This document shows positions 149-7,915 of a stretch of DNA of 50,379 nucleotides, one piece after another (the first letter of the stretch is position 1; each line of letters opens with the position of its first letter). The stretch is from Candidatus Eisenbacteria bacterium (GTDB lineage Bacteria; Orphanbacterota; Orphanbacteria; Orphanbacterales; Orphanbacteraceae): positions 1 to 50,379 of the forward strand of contig VGIW01000016.1 in assembly GCA_016867715.1 (NCBI GenBank). Reading direction: 5' to 3'. The notes under the pieces are model-generated. The model was not told where the DNA came from and ran no database searches. It worked only from the letters and a program-made list of their open reading frames with translations. A program made the translations under genes and the position numbers.

Positions 149-223
149 TCCGATCCCCGGGCGCAAGAATCCCGGCCGAGAGGATATCAGGAAAAGGCCC
201 CGGGGCGAAGGCTGGAGGGGGGA

Positions 224-643
224 TCAGTTGTCCGCCGCGCCCTCCGCGATCCACGCGCGGATCGTCTCGAGATCCTCGCCGCCAAGCGCCCCTCCGGCGG
301 GCATTCTCTGGCCGAAGTCCGGGTTGCCGAGAAGCTTCTGGTAGAGGACCGAGCGCCCGGGGTCCCCCGGGACGACGCGAACCTCGGGCGCGTATCCGAC
401 CGAGACCACGCCGACGAGAGCGGAACGGCTGTTTCCTCCGACGAGGGTGAGCCCGCCGCTCGTACCGTGGCATCCGGCGCAGTTCGCGTTCCAGATCGGC
501 TGCACATCTTCGCGGTAGGAGACCGCGGGGGCCGGATTCCCGTTGCCGTTCGTGTTCCCGGGATCGACAGGGCCGCCCTGATCCGAGCATCCGGCGAAGA
601 CATGGATCGCGGCGGCGAGGACAAGCGGTTTCATCTTCTTCAT
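224..643 (-). CDS. Small monoheme c-type cytochrome lipoprotein
   Basis: 139 aa. The N-terminus is a lipoprotein signal (MKKMKPLVLAAAIHVFAGC, lipobox AGC), so the mature protein should be lipid-anchored. A Pro/Gly/Asn-rich linker follows, then SYREDVQPIWNANCAGCHG with one CxxCH heme-binding motif. Near the C-terminus, GQRMPAGG could supply the distal Met ligand (the M in RMPAGG), and the protein ends in a helix ETIRAWIAEGA. The layout resembles short cytochrome c domains that begin with a V-x-PI(W/F) stretch and have one CxxCH. The likely role is electron transfer at the outer face of a membrane; the partner is unknown. Its ATG overlaps the stop of the YceI gene as ATGA, so translation is probably coupled. 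Ribosome site GGAGG is upstream. Confidence 0.75.
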   Translation of the reverse strand: MKKMKPLVLAAAIHVFAGCSDQGGPVDPGNTNGNGNPAPAVSYREDVQPIWNANCAGCHGTSGGLTLVGGNSRSALVGVVSVGYAPEVRVVPGDPGRSVLYQKLLGNPDFGQRMPAGGALGGEDLETIRAWIAEGAADN

Positions 644-1254
644 GGCGCCTCCTCTTGTTCGGCGGCGAGCGGATGGGCGACGATCCGTACGTGAACGCGC
701 TGGACTTCATTCAGCCGGAGCAGGAGAAACTGCGGGCGCGGGATCTCGAAGTCGGAGAGGCGGATCTCGAACGCGGTCTCGATGAGGAGAGACCCGTTCT
801 TCCCGCGTCGGATCTCGACCGGGACCGCAAGCGGACGGGTCACGCCGTGGAGCGAGAACATTCCGGCGAGCGAGAAGCGTGCCCGGCCCTCCGAGTCCCA
901 GCTCCCCTCGATCGGATCGACGATTCGTCCACCGCGGAAGACCGCCTTCGGGAAATCGTCGGTGTGGAGATGGTTCTCCCGCATGTGCGCGTTTCGAAGG
1001 TCGATTCCGGTGTCCAGCGTCGCGAGGTCCGCCTCGACGAAGACCACGACCGATTCGGAGAGAGCGGGAAGATCCGCACGAATCCATCCCGATACCGCGC
1101 GCGTCTTTCCGTCGAAGCTCTCGAGCGGAGCGGACGATCGAAACCGGACGAGATTCTCCTCCTCGCCGGACCGGATCTCGAAGCGCTCCGCGAACGCCCC
1201 CGGCGCGAGGAGAGTGAGAACGAGCACCGCGCGCGTCGCCGCGCCTCTTCGCAT
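640..1254 (-). CDS. YceI-family periplasmic protein
   Basis: 204 aa with a signal peptide (MRRGAATRAVLVLTLLAPGAFA). The body fits the YceI lipocalin-like fold: a region with SFDGKTRAVSGWI, the block VVVFVEADLATLDTGIDLR, then NAHMRENHLHTDDFPKAVF, which is the family hallmark (D-x-R-(N/D)-x-H-L-(R/H)-x-(D/E)-F-(F/D)-x-x). It ends with a GMFSLHGVTRPLAVPV strand pair. YceI proteins bind polyisoprenoid-type lipids in the periplasm and often sit next to cytochromes. Here the gene lies between a cytochrome-porin fusion (10 nt upstream) and a monoheme lipoprotein (ATGA overlap downstream), so a role in a redox envelope system is plausible but inferred. The start was chosen at the ATG preceded by GGAGAAGAC and followed by the signal peptide. 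Confidence 0.85.
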   Translation of the reverse strand: MRRGAATRAVLVLTLLAPGAFAERFEIRSGEEENLVRFRSSAPLESFDGKTRAVSGWIRADLPALSESVVVFVEADLATLDTGIDLRNAHMRENHLHTDDFPKAVFRGGRIVDPIEGSWDSEGRARFSLAGMFSLHGVTRPLAVPVEIRRGKNGSLLIETAFEIRLSDFEIPRPQFLLLRLNEVQRVHVRIVAHPLAAEQEEAP

Positions 1255-1264
1255 GTCTTCTCCT

Positions 1265-2362
1265 CTAGTAGAAGAAATGAACGACAAGCAGGGCCTCCGC
1301 ATCGTCCTTTTCCGTGAATGCGGGCCCTTCGTCGAAGTCGTGAAAGTAGACCATGCCGAGGATGCCGGCGAAGGGGAGCGGAAGCGCGTCGATACCGATC
1401 CCGACTCGGCGGTGCGCGCCGTTCGCCCGATCGATGTCGGGGTCGTGGAGATCGTAGGTCGCGAGGAGGTCGATCCCCTGCGCCAACCTCCCCGAAACCT
1501 CGTGAGAGATCGCGAAGGAAGTGGTCTCGACTTCGCCCGCCGCTCGCTGCCAGTCGCACTCGCCGATCCACGCGAAAGGTCCCCACGAGAGGGAGGCGAA
1601 CGGACCGGCCGTCCAATCGGCGACGCTTGTCGGCGCGTCCTCGAGAAGAGAGCCGCCGATCGCCGCCCGGAGAGGACCGGCGCGGACCCTCTTCTCGACA
1701 CGGAAAACATACGCCCGCGCGCCGTCCGAATCGCGAAGCCGCCCGGGCGCTCCGTTCAAGATCGAAAGGTTGAGGCTCATATTGATCGGAAACAAGCCGA
1801 GCTCGATCCCGACGTCGGTGTGCGCCGGGGGCGTGAAGTAACCGAGCGTCGCGCGCGTGAAGGCCGTGTGGTCGGGCCGCCGCCAGCCGTAGGCCGGGGC
1901 GAATCGGCCGACCTTGAGGGTTCCGTTCGCGGGGAGAATCGATGCGGTCGCGAAGAGCTCGTAGGAACCGGTGATGCCGCGTTCCGCGTAGACGGCGAAG
2001 CGGGGTTCCATCTGAACGTGCAGATACACGTCTCCCTGCATCTGAAAGAAGTTGTTCGTCTGTTTGTGTTCGCGGGAGTAGGCGGCGAGCGTGCGCATGT
2101 CGGCTCCGAGGATCACGCTCCGGGTGAGGGCGCGCTCAATCCTCTCGACGCCCTCGTCGAACGAGGGGCGCATCGCGATTTCGTTCGGGAGGAGATACTC
2201 GCTCGCGTAGGCGCTCCGCATCCCACCCCCGGAGGGATCCTCGTGGCAGAGCTGGCAGCGCTGCCCGTAGCGGGCGGAGTAGCGCGGGACGGCGTGAGCC
2301 GCCCCGGTCGAGGCAAGAAGGGCGGCGCCCGCGAGCGCGATCGCCATCAACCGGAAGATCAT
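1265..2362 (-). CDS. Fused cytochrome-porin: single N-terminal CxxCH plus outer-membrane barrel
   Basis: 365 aa. A signal peptide (MIFRLMAIALAGAALLAS...AHA) is followed at once by a heme site, YGQRCQLCHEDPSGGG, and then MRSAYASEYLLP. The rest consists of short alternating strands with aromatic and charged turns (QGDVYLHVQMEPRFAVYAERG, GTLKVGRFAPAYGWRRPDHTAF and more) and ends in a terminal aromatic residue (VVHFFY). This is the usual look of an outer-membrane beta-barrel. One c-type heme at the mouth of a barrel matches the general plan of Cyc2-like cytochrome-porins, which carry electrons across the outer membrane. I see the architecture but cannot place it in a named family. It is first in a minus-strand operon with YceI and a monoheme lipoprotein. 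Ribosome site GGGAGAGG. Confidence 0.7.
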   Translation of the reverse strand: MIFRLMAIALAGAALLASTGAAHAVPRYSARYGQRCQLCHEDPSGGGMRSAYASEYLLPNEIAMRPSFDEGVERIERALTRSVILGADMRTLAAYSREHKQTNNFFQMQGDVYLHVQMEPRFAVYAERGITGSYELFATASILPANGTLKVGRFAPAYGWRRPDHTAFTRATLGYFTPPAHTDVGIELGLFPINMSLNLSILNGAPGRLRDSDGARAYVFRVEKRVRAGPLRAAIGGSLLEDAPTSVADWTAGPFASLSWGPFAWIGECDWQRAAGEVETTSFAISHEVSGRLAQGIDLLATYDLHDPDIDRANGAHRRVGIGIDALPLPFAGILGMVYFHDFDEGPAFTEKDDAEALLVVHFFY

Positions 2363-2575
2363 AACCTCTCCCGTTGCTCGTCGGAGGGATGGATCGCCCG
2401 GACGACCCGGATGTCTCGGGGGGCGGGCTCTTGAGATAGAGATAGGAAGAGAGCGGGCCTCGCGCCAGTCGCGGTTTCCCTTGCCGCTCCGTTGGTCCGG
2501 GTCTACGATGGGGCGGGCCGGGAGCGCCTGGGCTCCCCGCGGCCGATTCGGCTTTCCACCCGGCGGGTGCGTCGC

Positions 2576-3487
2576 ATGGATCGTTTCGACACGGGCATCC
2601 GCGCATCGGGGCTCTCGATCGGGGTCAACCTCGCCCTTGCGCTCGCCAAGGTCTTCACGGGGATCGTCGGAAACTCGTACGCGCTCATCGCGGACGGAAT
2701 CGAATCGACGGCGGACGTCGTCTCCTCGGCGATCGTCTGGGGCGGGCTCCGCATCTCCGCGCGCCCGCCGGACCGCACGCATCCCTATGGGCACGGCAAG
2801 GCGGAATCGCTGGCCGGGGTCCTGGTCGCGGTCGCGATCATGCTCGCGGCGACCCTCATCGCTGTTCAGAGCGTTCGGGGAATCCACGAGCCGCACCGCG
2901 CGCCGGAGTGGTACACGCTCGCCGTTCTCGCTCTCGTCGTCGGGATCAAGGAGACGATGTACCGGAGGAACCTTCGGATCGGGCGCACGCTGAACAGCCG
3001 CGCGCTGCAAGGGGACGCCTGGCACCATCGATCGGACGCGATCACATCGCTCGCCGCGTTCGTCGGGATCTCGGTCGCGCTGATCGGCGGGAAGGGCTAC
3101 GAGGCCGCGGACGATTGGGCGGCGCTCCTCGCGTGCGGCATCATCCTCTACAACGGCGTTCGGCTTCTCCGGCCGGCGGTGGACGAGGTGATGGACGCGG
3201 CGGTGTCCGGCGAGGTCGAGACGGAAATCCGCGCGATCGCCGCGAAGGTGCCTGGTGTGGTGGAGGTCGAGAAGTGCCGCGTGCGAAAGAGCGGCCTCGG
3301 ACTCCTCATGGACATTCACGTCGTGGTGGAGGGCCGGATCAGCGTGCGTGAGGGCCACCGCATCGGTCACGAGGTGAAGGACCGTCTCACGGAATCCTAT
3401 CTGCCGATTCGGGACGTCGTCGTGCACGTCGAGCCGGACCGCTCGGATCACGCGTGTGATGGGGGCGTGGACCAAGAGCCGGGGTAG
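2576..3487 (+). CDS. Cation diffusion facilitator (CDF) family metal transporter
   Basis: 303 aa from the ATG at MDRFDTGIRAS; an upstream in-frame ATG at 2492 adds only a low-complexity Arg/Gly stretch. The CDF pattern is clear. TM1 and TM2 end in SYALIADGIESTADVVSS, where D40 and D47 are in the positions of the intramembrane metal site. TM5 carries the second half of the site in LQGDAWHHRSDAITS, and HPYGHGKAESLAG is the conserved TM2-3 loop. A C-terminal cytoplasmic ferredoxin-like domain (from about residue 210) contains KVPGVVEVEKCRVRKSG and a final DVVVHVEP strand, typical of the dimerising metal-sensing domain. Members exchange Zn2+, Fe2+, Mn2+ or Cd2+ for protons; the metal cannot be read here. 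It converges with the CapA-like gene (16 nt apart). Confidence 0.92.
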   Translation: MDRFDTGIRASGLSIGVNLALALAKVFTGIVGNSYALIADGIESTADVVSSAIVWGGLRISARPPDRTHPYGHGKAESLAGVLVAVAIMLAATLIAVQSVRGIHEPHRAPEWYTLAVLALVVGIKETMYRRNLRIGRTLNSRALQGDAWHHRSDAITSLAAFVGISVALIGGKGYEAADDWAALLACGIILYNGVRLLRPAVDEVMDAAVSGEVETEIRAIAAKVPGVVEVEKCRVRKSGLGLLMDIHVVVEGRISVREGHRIGHEVKDRLTESYLPIRDVVVHVEPDRSDHACDGGVDQEPG

Positions 3488-3503: not shown

Positions 3504-6500
3504 TCATCTCAACAGGACGATCTTGCCCGTGAGCGCGCGCCCGTCGATCGCCGCGCGGACGAGGTAGACGCCGCTCGGAACCTCGCGGCCGCGCGCGTCC
3601 GTCCCCTTCCAGACGACGCCGAGCTTCGTTCCGCCCTCCGCTTCCCCTTGGTGAACCGTCGCGATTCTCCGCCCGCGGATGTCGAAGATCTCGATCCGCA
3701 CGTCGGCCTTCCCCTCTCCCGGGATCGAGAGCTCGATCGTCGTGCGCGCGTTGAACGGGTTCGGGAAGTTCTGAAGAAGCGGCGCAGCCGGCGCGGGCGG
3801 CCGGCCGCCGACGGATGTCGCCGACGGTTCGTAAGCGGTCTCGGAGTACTCGACGATCACGCTCCCCGGCCCGGCGCTCATGCTTCGCACCTGAAGGAAA
3901 CGGAAGTTGTTGGGTGAAGGAATCGCGCTCTCGCCGTTCCAGGCGACCCACGGCTCCCACTCGATGAACGCGAGGTCGTCGAACCACGCGTGTCCGGTTC
4001 CGCTCGCGGGACGATCGTTCGAGCAGCGCACCTCGAAGTATACGCCGTTCGACGGCGTGTCGAGGTCCTTCCACTGGCGGACCCAATCGCATGTTCCGGA
4101 GAAAGACGGCGCGGCGTTCGTGCTCGCGACTGGCGTCTCCGAGTGGCGGGTCGAGTAGAAGCGGGCGCTCATCCACGCGCCGCCGGCGTTCTCCGCCTTC
4201 ATGTAGCCGAGAATCGAGTGGGCATTCGCGGGATCGCAAGGGAGGTGTTTCTCGAGATCGGCGCCGACCGCGCCGCTGCTTCCCGAGGAGCGCCGGAGCG
4301 CGAGCGAGCGCGCGCCGGAGTGCGCGGCGTTGGTGTCGAGCCACTCGTCCGCCGAGTTCAGGTCCCAGAAGGTCGCGCCCTCCTCCTCGAAAACCCCGTG
4401 CCAAAGGATCTCTCTCCCCCAGCGCACCTCCCAGCCGCTCCCCGGCCCCTCGATCGATCGAATCGCGGAGAGGTTTCCCTTCCCCTCGAGCGCGAGAGGC
4501 GGCGTCGTGCGGCCTCCGCTCGCAACGAAGAGCGAGTCGACGATCGTCGCGGGGGTGACGGTCGAGTCGGTCGCGGCCCGGTCGAGATAGATACGCGCCC
4601 CCGCCTTGTCGAAGAAGGGGGCGACGATGGCGCCCATCGGACGCGAGTAGTCGGCCATCCGGTCCACGATCTCGCGTCCGAGCGTTCCGGTCGCCGGCCT
4701 CGGAATCCAATCGTCGATCCACGCCGGAACGAAGGAGTAGCCGACGATCCCCTCCTTGTCGATGGCGAGCGTGAGAACGATCGTCGGCATCGTCTCGGGA
4801 TAGTACAGATCGAAAACGAAGTTCCCGAGGCTGTGCGCGATGAGCTTTCCGTTGTGCGACTCGAACCCTTGCAGCACGTGCGGATGATGGTTGATGACGA
4901 CGTCCGCCCCGAGGTCCGCCGCGAGACGGCGAAGGGCCCGATCGCCCGGGCTCGGCTCCACGCGGAAGCGGAAGTCGGGGTCGCCCGGACCGATTGCGTT
5001 CGCCTCGACGGGGAACGGTTCCGCGAGACGCCCGCCTTTCTCCGGCGGCGCGGTGTCGTACTCGTCGCCGCTGTGCGTTTGGATGACGACGATGTCGGCC
5101 GCCTCGCGCGCCGAGGCGACCGCCGCCTCGACGTTGTGCGCGAGAAAGTACGCGAAGCCGGGCTTGCTCGCCCCCGCGTCGAGGAATGGCTGATAGTTCC
5201 ACTTCCGGCCGCATCGATTGCACTGTCCAAGAAACGCCATCCGGACGCCGTTCTTCGAGTAGAACGTCGGAAGGAGCGCGAAGTACTCGTTCGTTCCCGC
5301 GCCGGAATGCCGGATATCGAGGCTGTCGAGGAGACGAAACGTCTGGAGCATCCCCTCCTCGCCGTAGTCGATGATGTGGTTGTTGGCGGTCGTCACGAGG
5401 TCCACGCCGGCGTACGCGATCCCCGCGATGTTCTCCGGGCGGCTTCGAAAGACCACGCTCTTCGTCGGGTGCGGCGTCCCCTGGTTGGTATACGCACATT
5501 CGAGATTGCAAACATTCACGTCCGCGGCGTTTCCGAAGATCGAAAGGGTCGGCTCGAAGAGCGCCTCGATCCCCTGCGTGGCGATGATCCCTCCCGGTGT
5601 TTCGTAGCCGCGCCCGGTGAAAACATCCCCGACGAAGTTCACCGTGATCGGAAGGTCGCCCGCGCCCGGCTCGACGCGCACCTGGCACGTGTCGGTCCCG
5701 GCGAGGGCGCTCTCGTCGCGGACGAGGAGCCCCACCGTGTACGTGTAATGCGCCTCGACGAGGAACTCGTGGGTCGGGTTCCGCTCGCCGCTCGTCCCTC
5801 CGTCTCCGAAGTCCCAGGAGAAGGTGTGGACATCCGAGTCGGGATCGAAGACGTTCGCGTAGAACTGAACGCCGACGAGGAAGAGGTTCTTCGCGACCGG
5901 CACGGTCTTCTCCACGACATACGAGATGCTCGGCTCGGGCGGCACGGGGAGAGCCTCGGTCACGTCGGCGATCTCGTCGAAGAGAACGATTCCGGTCGTT
6001 CCCTCGTCGTCGTCGTTCGCGTAGAAGAGGCGGTCGATGGTCGGGAGGTAGCCGTAGGTCGCCTTCCAGTCGCGGCCGATCGGGAGGAGATAGGCGTACC
6101 ACTCGTCCTCCGGGAAGGCCCCCTGGTAGACGGTCCACCACTTCGATTCCTGCGGGAGCTGCTCCCCCGCGAACGTGTAGAAGAGCTCGTTCAGCGAATC
6201 GCCGACGCCGAAGGCCTGCATCTCGCCAAGCCGCTCGACAAACGCAGCCGCCTGCCAGACGGTCTCTTCCGCGATAGCGATCGCCGGGATCCGCTGGATC
6301 TTCCACGTGTTTCCGAAGAGGCGAAGGGCGTAGGAGCCTGCGTACGGATTGCTCGATGTCACGGTCCAGTCGGACGGATCGGCGTCCTGCCCCGGATAGC
6401 TTTCGAGGGCGACGGAGCCGCTCTCGAAGTCCTCGATGATCACCCCGCGCGTCGCGGCGAATGGAGCGCCGGCGGCGAGGGCCGATAGAAGAAGCACAAG

Positions 6501-6521
6501 AAGAAGTCTCGCGTTCGGCAT
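3504..6521 (-). CDS. Secreted CapA-type metallophosphatase-like protein with PKD and FlgD-like C-terminal domain
   Basis: 1005 aa. Signal peptide MPNARLLLVLLLSALAAGAPFA. An N-terminal jelly-roll-like region is followed at about residues 215-290 by a PKD domain (HTFSWDFGDGGTSGERNP). At about 295-640 lies a CapA/PGA_cap calcineurin-like domain: VNFVGDVFTGRGYE, DVNVCNLECAYTNQG, DLVTTANNHIIDYGEEGM, GADVVINHHPHVLQGFE, LIAHSLGNFVFD. A carbohydrate-binding-like region with GTCDWVRQWK follows. The last roughly 85 residues form a FlgD-like Ig domain (LLQNFPNPFNARTTI ... GKIVLLR). CapA is known from poly-gamma-glutamate capsule export; here the domain is in a large exported protein, so another surface role is likely. 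Ribosome site GAGGA precedes the ATG, and an extended -10 lies about 46 nt upstream. Confidence 0.85.
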   Translation of the reverse strand: MPNARLLLVLLLSALAAGAPFAATRGVIIEDFESGSVALESYPGQDADPSDWTVTSSNPYAGSYALRLFGNTWKIQRIPAIAIAEETVWQAAAFVERLGEMQAFGVGDSLNELFYTFAGEQLPQESKWWTVYQGAFPEDEWYAYLLPIGRDWKATYGYLPTIDRLFYANDDDEGTTGIVLFDEIADVTEALPVPPEPSISYVVEKTVPVAKNLFLVGVQFYANVFDPDSDVHTFSWDFGDGGTSGERNPTHEFLVEAHYTYTVGLLVRDESALAGTDTCQVRVEPGAGDLPITVNFVGDVFTGRGYETPGGIIATQGIEALFEPTLSIFGNAADVNVCNLECAYTNQGTPHPTKSVVFRSRPENIAGIAYAGVDLVTTANNHIIDYGEEGMLQTFRLLDSLDIRHSGAGTNEYFALLPTFYSKNGVRMAFLGQCNRCGRKWNYQPFLDAGASKPGFAYFLAHNVEAAVASAREAADIVVIQTHSGDEYDTAPPEKGGRLAEPFPVEANAIGPGDPDFRFRVEPSPGDRALRRLAADLGADVVINHHPHVLQGFESHNGKLIAHSLGNFVFDLYYPETMPTIVLTLAIDKEGIVGYSFVPAWIDDWIPRPATGTLGREIVDRMADYSRPMGAIVAPFFDKAGARIYLDRAATDSTVTPATIVDSLFVASGGRTTPPLALEGKGNLSAIRSIEGPGSGWEVRWGREILWHGVFEEEGATFWDLNSADEWLDTNAAHSGARSLALRRSSGSSGAVGADLEKHLPCDPANAHSILGYMKAENAGGAWMSARFYSTRHSETPVASTNAAPSFSGTCDWVRQWKDLDTPSNGVYFEVRCSNDRPASGTGHAWFDDLAFIEWEPWVAWNGESAIPSPNNFRFLQVRSMSAGPGSVIVEYSETAYEPSATSVGGRPPAPAAPLLQNFPNPFNARTTIELSIPGEGKADVRIEIFDIRGRRIATVHQGEAEGGTKLGVVWKGTDARGREVPSGVYLVRAAIDGRALTGKIVLLR

Positions 6522-6566
6522 GCGCGTTCCTCGGGTTCGGCCGGGCGCGGGGGAGGTTCGCGCTTC

Positions 6567-6575
6567 ATTATACCA
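6567..6575 (-). promoter_or_regulatory. Extended -10 promoter element for the CapA-like gene
   Basis: On the minus strand the sequence reads TGGTATAAT, an exact extended -10 (TGnTATAAT). No good -35 is visible at 16-18 nt, as is common for extended -10 promoters. Transcription would start near 6560, giving a leader of about 40 nt to the ATG at 6521. The opposite strand serves the M20 amidohydrolase; a weaker TACGAT at 6587-6592 could be its -10, so the two divergent promoters would overlap. Confidence 0.5.
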
Positions 6576-6625
6576 CGGCGGATCGTTTACGATGGAGCGA
6601 GGTTCCTGCTTCCGAGGAGAGGATC

Positions 6626-7915
6626 ATGAGACGAAAAGGAGTCGCCGCGTTCTTTCTCGCCCTGCTCCCCCACTGGGCCGCGGCCCACGCGGAGAGAAAC
6701 GCTCCCGATTTCGCCGCGTTCGTCGCGAAGCACGAGGCGCGCGCGATCGAGGAGCGGCGCTGGTTTCACGCGCATCCGGAGCTCGCCCTTCGCGAGACCG
6801 AAACACGGGCGCACATTCTCGCGGCACTCGCCGAGTTTTCGGGAATCGAGATCGTCGACGGGGATTGGGGGACCGGCGTCGTCGCGATCCTCCGGGGAGA
6901 CGAACCCGGACCGCTCGTCGCCTGGCGCGCGGACATGGACGCGCTCCCCATCGCCGAGGAGACCGGGCGGTCGTTCGCGTCGACGAGGACCGACACGTCC
7001 GAGGGGCGCACGGTCGGCCTCATGCACGCGTGCGGCCACGACATCCACATGAGCGTCGCTCTCGGCGCGGCGCGCGTTCTCTCGGACGCACGCGCGATGA
7101 TGCGAGGCTCTATTCTCTTTATCTTTCAACCGGCGGAGGAAACCGGCGCGGGCGCGGCGCAGATGATCGAGGCGGGTGTCTTCGAGGACGGACGCCTCCC
7201 GAAGTGCATCCTCGCGCTGCACGATCATCCGACGCTTCTCGCAGGCCGCGTCGGTTCGTGCGCCGGTTACGCGAGCGCGAACGTGGACGCCTTTCGCCTC
7301 ACGGTGAAGGGGAAAGGTGGGCACGGCGCGTACCCGCACGAGACGATCGATCCGGTGACGCTCGCCGCGGAGATCGTGCTCGCGCTTCAGACGATCGTCG
7401 CGCGCGAGATCTCCGTCGACCGTCCCGCGGTGATCTCGGTGGGGAGCATCCACGGAGGCTCGAAGAGCAGCGCGATCCCGGACGAGGTCGTCCTCTCGGC
7501 GACGGTTCGGAGCCGCGACGACGAGACGAGGGCGGAACTCCAAGCGCGGATCGAGCGGACCGCGCGCGGCCACGCCGCCGCAGCGGGCGCTCCCGAGCCG
7601 GTTCTCGAGTACTTCCTCGGCACGCCCGCCGGCTACAATGATCCGAAGCTCGTCGCCGAGGCGCGCGAGGTCTTCCGGCGCGTGCTCGGCGAGGAGAACG
7701 ATCTCGTCTACGAACCGGGAATGGGCGGCGAGGATTTCTCCTACTTCGGTCGAATCGTCCCCGGCTTCCAGTTCCGTCTCGGCGTCGGGCGGGAGGGGGT
7801 CGAGATGGCGCTTCATAGTTCAACCTTCGATCCGGACGAAGCGGCGATTCCGGTCGGCATCCGGGTCGTCGCCGAGGTGCTCTGGGATCAGCTTCATCGC
7901 GCGGAGAATGATTGA
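6626..7915 (+). CDS. M20-family metal-dependent amidohydrolase, probably exported
   Basis: 429 aa. The start at the ATG after GGAGAGGATC gives a signal peptide (MRRKGVAAFFLALLPHWAAAHA). The M20D/amidohydrolase motifs are in place: RRWFHAHPELALRETET; the substrate and metal block VAWRADMDALPIAEETG; the dinuclear metal signature HACGHDIHMSVALG (Cys136, His138); FIFQPAEETGAGA (the PAEE glutamate, about 171-172); LALHDHP; the dimerisation-domain motif GKGGHGAYPHETIDP; and a late MGGEDFSYF. Relatives hydrolyse hippurate, N-acetyl amino acids, IAA-amino acid conjugates or N-acyl dipeptides. The exact substrate cannot be told. Most relatives are cytoplasmic, so a cleavable leader is a small oddity. 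It converges on msrA with only 9 nt between stops. Confidence 0.9.
   Translation: MRRKGVAAFFLALLPHWAAAHAERNAPDFAAFVAKHEARAIEERRWFHAHPELALRETETRAHILAALAEFSGIEIVDGDWGTGVVAILRGDEPGPLVAWRADMDALPIAEETGRSFASTRTDTSEGRTVGLMHACGHDIHMSVALGAARVLSDARAMMRGSILFIFQPAEETGAGAAQMIEAGVFEDGRLPKCILALHDHPTLLAGRVGSCAGYASANVDAFRLTVKGKGGHGAYPHETIDPVTLAAEIVLALQTIVAREISVDRPAVISVGSIHGGSKSSAIPDEVVLSATVRSRDDETRAELQARIERTARGHAAAAGAPEPVLEYFLGTPAGYNDPKLVAEAREVFRRVLGEENDLVYEPGMGGEDFSYFGRIVPGFQFRLGVGREGVEMALHSSTFDPDEAAIPVGIRVVAEVLWDQLHRAEND

Follow-up and report, generated by a model that had tools for sequence, protein, structure and literature searches.

A single-heme cytochrome-porin encoded with a YceI lipocalin and a monoheme lipoprotein looks like an undescribed relative of Cyc2

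The window, i.e. the whole stretch of 50,379 nucleotides that was analysed, encodes a member of a cytochrome-porin family that, judged from its sequences, has its own signature and its own partner genes. The protein (heme-porin) seems to be related to Cyc2 without having been described before, and it is a candidate for a new route of electron passage at the cell surface. Cyc2, a well-described single-heme cytochrome-porin, serves as a marker for iron oxidation. The new element is a cassette in which the heme-porin gene is followed by genes for a YceI-family protein and a monoheme c-type cytochrome. If a second type of cytochrome-porin is indeed spread over several poorly cultured phyla, the known range of redox systems at the cell surface would become wider, and not every short heme-porin should be counted as Cyc2. 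Such a type would also suggest that YceI lipocalins take part in outer-membrane electron transfer, which is directly testable.

The first-pass annotation of this DNA had placed at positions 1265-2362 a single heme site fused to a barrel, in an operon with genes for a YceI protein and a monoheme lipoprotein. These coordinates are correct, the gene lying on the minus strand (Table 1). A signal peptide followed by one CxxCH and a terminal aromatic residue, both described there, are indeed present: the heme site reads CQLCH (residues 36-40), and the protein ends in LLVVHFFY with Tyr as its last residue. Outer-membrane barrels usually have an aromatic C-terminal residue, and F, Y or W closes 60 of 69 aligned heme-porins. 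The heme site is embedded in the signature AxPRYSARYGQxCxLCHxxPxGGGxR, and the ATG is preceded by an AGAGG motif. Searches of Pfam and NCBIfam gave no match for the heme-porin. A long plus-strand frame at 782-2434 that runs across the gene was rejected as a shadow frame of GC-rich DNA, since every homologue corresponds to the gene on the minus strand.

Table 1 Features of the heme-porin gene, its partner genes and their surroundings in the window.
Feature	Position	Strand	Sequence or length	Remarks
Heme-porin gene	1265..2362 (coding 1268-2362, stop 1265-1267)	minus	365 aa	
Heme-porin signal peptide	residues 1-24		MIFRLMAIALAGAALLASTGAAHA	AHA cleavage site
Heme-porin heme site	residues 36-40		CQLCH	eleven residues from the N terminus of the mature protein
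Heme-porin CxxCH codons	2243..2257	minus	TGCCAGCTCTGCCAC	
Heme-porin barrel (predicted)	about residues 80-365			aromatic C terminus
YceI-family periplasmic lipocalin-like protein	640..1254	minus		signal peptide; divergent subfamily
Monoheme c-type cytochrome lipoprotein	224..643	minus		lipobox FAGC; heme site NCAGCH
CxxCH codons of the monoheme lipoprotein	467..481	minus	TGCGCCGGATGCCAC	
Possible intrinsic terminator	197..212	minus		right after the cassette; weak, pattern match only
CDF metal transporter, MamB/FieF-like	2492-3487	plus		divergent; other side of the heme-porin gene
Secreted protein	3504-6521	minus	1005 aa	PGA_cap and PKD domains; weak match to a C-terminal sorting domain
M20 family peptidase/amidohydrolase	6461-7915	plus		

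The proposed operon is matched by the gene layout, as the three genes share one strand, the heme-porin and YceI genes are separated by 10 bp, and the YceI and cytochrome genes share a 4-bp ATGA overlap. Across the 50,379 bases of the window, codons that spell CxxCH turn up at two places, compared with 0.39 expected by chance, and both lie in this operon, in the right frame and one in each cytochrome gene. This pattern of single heme sites within one operon exceeds chance by far. The YceI protein of the cassette scores 62 bits against Pfam PF04264 (cut-off 23.7), whereas the other YceI of the genome scores 153 bits, which marks the cassette copy as divergent. The monoheme lipoprotein carries RMPAGG, possibly providing a Met ligand, and its best Pfam match is Cytochrome_CBB3 at 24.5 bits, slightly below the cut-off of 27. 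A single copy of the heme-porin is found in the genome.

On the other side of the heme-porin gene, the window encodes a CDF transporter. A MamB/FieF-like CDF transporter also adjoins a heme-porin in a distant genome (L054:4733-5719), in a different orientation. The transporter was rejected as a member of the cassette, since the adjacency is confined to the genus of the window and one other genome.

The barrel-like sequence proposed in the first reading is well supported by profile homology to both OprP-type porins and barrels of Cyc2-motif proteins, with negative reversed controls. In profile-profile comparison with 20 proteins collected by means of the published Cyc2 motif, the family profile aligned over its full length (P 99.6, E 4e-24). 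The barrel alone (P 97.9, E 3e-13) and the cytochrome segment alone (P 97.1) aligned as well, with reversed-profile controls at P 0.2-1.2. Heme-less Porin_O_P proteins of other genomes matched the barrel at P 98.9 and E 1.6e-17 (hhalign; reversed controls P 0.7-1.3), and the top porin in a sequence search of the PDB was OprP (2o4v, E 0.044). A hydrophobic-moment scan gave about 20 candidate segments, which do not fix the number of strands, and the AlphaFold model, built from a two-sequence input only, was unusable (pLDDT 27).

Published criteria for Cyc2 comprise AxPxFAR[Q/K][T/Y] before CxxCH, PxL after it and a length of at least 365 residues (Keffer et al. 2021, PMC8406198). Common to Cyc2 and the heme-porin are the signal peptide, the single CxxCH right after it (also a Cyc2 criterion) and the fused OprP-type barrel, as well as profile homology over the full length that includes AxP and the 3-residue spacing before CxxCH; with 365 aa, the heme-porin lies exactly at the minimum length. 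However, it reads AVPRYSARY at the position of the first Cyc2 motif, which fails across the family. The PxL found in Cyc2 4 residues after CxxCH is also missing, the heme-porin having CHEDPSGGGMR and the family a sequence of the NPxGGGxR type. Unlike Cyc2, the family shows CxxCHxxPxGGGxR together with the conserved barrel residues M108, K150, D164-H165, R170 and E187. The YceI-cytochrome cassette occurs at none of 22 Cyc2-motif loci, where neither partner is found. By the published criteria, the heme-porin is Cyc2-like in plan, as far as its sequence tells, and not a member of Cyc2. The plan recognised in the first-pass annotation thus holds for a single-heme segment fused to a porin-type barrel, whereas the assumption that the heme-porin is simply Cyc2 was rejected because both cytochrome motifs fail.

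The cytochrome segment is nevertheless probably related to that of Cyc2. Since heme-less Porin_O_P proteins fit the barrel no worse than the barrels of Cyc2-motif proteins do, a separate fusion event may have brought the heme to it. A search for the Cyc2 motif with zero mismatches found no gene in the genome of the window, although such a gene is present in two further genomes of the same family. Cyc2 homologues from hydrothermal metagenomes have been described in Gemmatimonadota, Calditrichota and other phyla (PMC9769843). At two loci (L059 and L060, from G156 and G294), a further protein with one heme, whose N terminus resembles that of Cyc2 (AIPAFARREKMPCHRCHDSWPRLNKFG), is encoded about 0.2-2 kb downstream of the heme-porin in the same direction. 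This adjacency suggests that both types may work together there.

Phosphate-selective porins of the OprP/OprO type (PF07396, Porin_O_P) have a homologous barrel with a shared KxGxFxxxxG segment, but the Porin_O_P proteins compared here lack the heme site. OprP is also the template named for the porin of Cyc2, which is described as 16-stranded and OprP-like (PMC8406198). The heme-porin itself gave no match to PF07396, and 2 of 23 family members match it weakly (best E 0.0015). An outer-membrane barrel combined with c-type heme is likewise found in the MtrCAB/MtoAB and Pcc conduits, but these have a 26-stranded barrel and a separate multiheme wire, whereas the heme-porin carries one heme fused to a smaller barrel. 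No multiheme cytochrome within or beside a large barrel was found in the 50-kb window, which contains only two CxxCH patterns.

Homologues were obtained from a protein search of 60 genomes (10 matches), a profile search of 386 genomes, which returned many more, and searches of three other phyla. A scan of genome contigs returned the sister species only (a metagenome-assembled genome labelled Gemmatimonadetes bacterium DeMMO4_6), and no relative of the heme-porin was found in the viral contigs searched. The first-pass annotation had considered that CxxCH might not be conserved in close homologues; none of the 71 distinct homologues whose sequence spans the heme site and most of the barrel is without it. 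In an alignment of 69 sequences, C36, C39, H40, G45, G152, G159, G185 and G236 are invariant, and P26, P43, R49 (68/69), D88, R90, M108, D164, H165, R170 and E187 are at least 94% conserved. M108 and H165 occur together in 65 of the 69 sequences and are both gone in the same 4. As these 4 are long branches in the tree, their joint loss can be read as a hint only. Based on this pattern, M108 or H165 may bind the heme or a metal in the pore, although M108 is not claimed as a heme ligand because the residue pattern suggests a lipid-facing side.

For 64 distinct heme-porins, 1 kb or more of sequence was available beyond the gene. In 37 of them, YceI lies directly downstream on the same strand, and in 29 of these the monoheme cytochrome follows next. 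The cytochrome alone is found downstream of 6, and 21 have neither partner adjacent, so that the partners are not obligatory for all heme-porins. Full cassettes were found in the phylum of the window and in three other phylum-level sets, i.e. in at least four phyla. Clustering of all frames from 50 neighbourhoods returned YceI (32 loci) and the cytochrome (28 loci) as the only broadly conserved neighbours, once antisense shadow frames and long scattered frames at no fixed position were set aside; the cluster of scattered frames includes the PGA_cap protein of the window with its sorting-domain-like tail. In a maximum-likelihood tree (quick search, SH-aLRT support only), all YceI-bearing members fall into one group of 53 with a support of 97, and at most one of the 16 members outside it has a partner gene. 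The window gene clusters with two genes of another phylum (L088 and L090, support 96) and apart from the YceI-only genes of its own family, a placement which suggests horizontal transfer of its cassette. No cytochrome-porin with YceI was found in the papers searched. The gene order of the putative electron partners, the heme motif and the porin homology are established at the level of sequence, and the cassette is conserved across phyla.

Function, substrate and direction of electron flow are inferred here by likeness to Cyc2 and YceI proteins. The outer-membrane heme-porin, YceI and the monoheme lipoprotein could form a conserved three-gene redox cassette that connects a small substrate in the pore with periplasmic carriers, and we consider the chances for and against this reading to be about even. 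The heme segment would probably be a plug at the periplasmic mouth of a barrel of the OprP/Cyc2 type and would bear a c-type heme. The presence of two cytochrome c assembly proteins and a heme-copper oxidase in the genome makes heme attachment plausible. A small soluble redox substrate, for which ferrous iron is one candidate, would enter the pore, reach a conserved Asp-His/Arg constriction and swap an electron with the plug heme, which in turn would exchange with the lipoprotein cytochrome in either direction, and YceI could carry or buffer a quinone. Located near the periplasmic end, the single heme could not span the membrane alone, and for Cyc2 it has been argued that the substrate has to enter the pore (PMC8406198).

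This scheme is proposed from the alignment to OprP and from YceI precedents. The D164-H165 segment aligns to T123-S124 of OprP, with H165 (65/69) on S124, a residue of the OprP phosphate site (PMC5877670). Most solved structures of YceI proteins contain bound ubiquinone-8 or other isoprenoids (PMC9113575), and a fusion of a YceI-like domain with c-type domains is known from Cbp2D (PMC8981238). Cbp2D of Cellvibrio (YceI/X158 and c-type domains) shares with the cassette the coupling of a YceI domain to c-type cytochrome domains, but it is a secreted single polypeptide with a carbohydrate-binding module and no porin. In a more specific version of the proposal, a heme-porin family distinct from Cyc2 would form a three-part machine with a dedicated quinone-binding YceI and the lipoprotein cytochrome. 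Electrons would then move between a substrate bound at the Asp-His/Arg site of the pore constriction, the heme of the plug and a quinone on a soluble carrier travelling through the periplasm; this version seems to us rather doubtful.

Alternatively, the cassette could be an envelope antioxidant system, in which quinol bound to YceI quenches radicals (lipid peroxyl or others), the quinone is recycled by c-type cytochromes, which take the place of cytochrome b561 (LcoA), and the heme-porin acts as a redox sink or channel instead of a respiratory entry. In Burkholderia, BcnA of the YceI family and a linked cytochrome b561 guard against membrane lipid peroxidation, and there, too, the YceI gene shares an operon with the neighbouring gene of a heme protein (PMC9113575). 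The position of YceI directly after the heme-porin at 37 of 64 loci would agree with such a function, as would the heme-copper oxidase, which implies that the organism can meet oxygen. Yet in the heme-porin cassette YceI is accompanied by cytochromes of the c type, including a porin, and neither cytochrome b561 nor a stress gene is among the widely conserved neighbours at the 50 loci. Moreover, no part of the cassette is as constant as the heme-porin, which is often found without YceI, and the cassette YceI is divergent (62 versus 153 bits), which together make an antioxidant role unlikely.

The Cyc2 domain order and the full-length profile homology to Cyc2-motif proteins would fit a functional ferrous iron oxidase of the Cyc2 type, i.e. 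a fourth cluster beyond the three known ones, with the lipoprotein cytochrome as periplasmic acceptor. The MamB/FieF-like CDF transporter, adjacent here and, in a different orientation, in a distant genome, is consistent with iron as the substrate, but this adjacency is rare. With both Cyc2 cytochrome motifs missing and a barrel whose match to Porin_O_P proteins lacking heme is no weaker than that to the barrels of Cyc2-motif proteins, the iron oxidase appears to be as improbable as the antioxidant system. The same barrel, which is nearest to OprP-type selective porins and has a highly conserved D-H...R in the segment aligned to the OprP phosphate site, could also belong to a substrate-specific porin for an anion, oxyanion or metal chelate, the heme being a structural or regulatory plug or a redox sensor without net electron flow. 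That the gene is so constantly linked with one for another c-type cytochrome and with a member of a quinone-binding family speaks for electron transfer and leaves such a porin very unlikely. The redox cassette connecting a pore substrate with periplasmic carriers is the reading we prefer.

Several members of the family depart from the common plan. L134 (G482:C37) belongs to the cassette group on a long branch, lacks M108 and H165 and has no adjacent YceI or cytochrome. Seven members carry a second CxxCH and form two groups of two-heme variants (L037, L039, L107, L111 and L112; L023 and L029); in one group the extra CxxCH precedes the GGGxR heme site, and in the other an extra CASCH lies in the segment preceding the barrel. 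At L085/L086 (G387:C205), a single frame of 469 aa comprises part of the heme-porin, YceI and the cytochrome, with the heme segment in another frame, and reflects either an assembly error or a real fusion.
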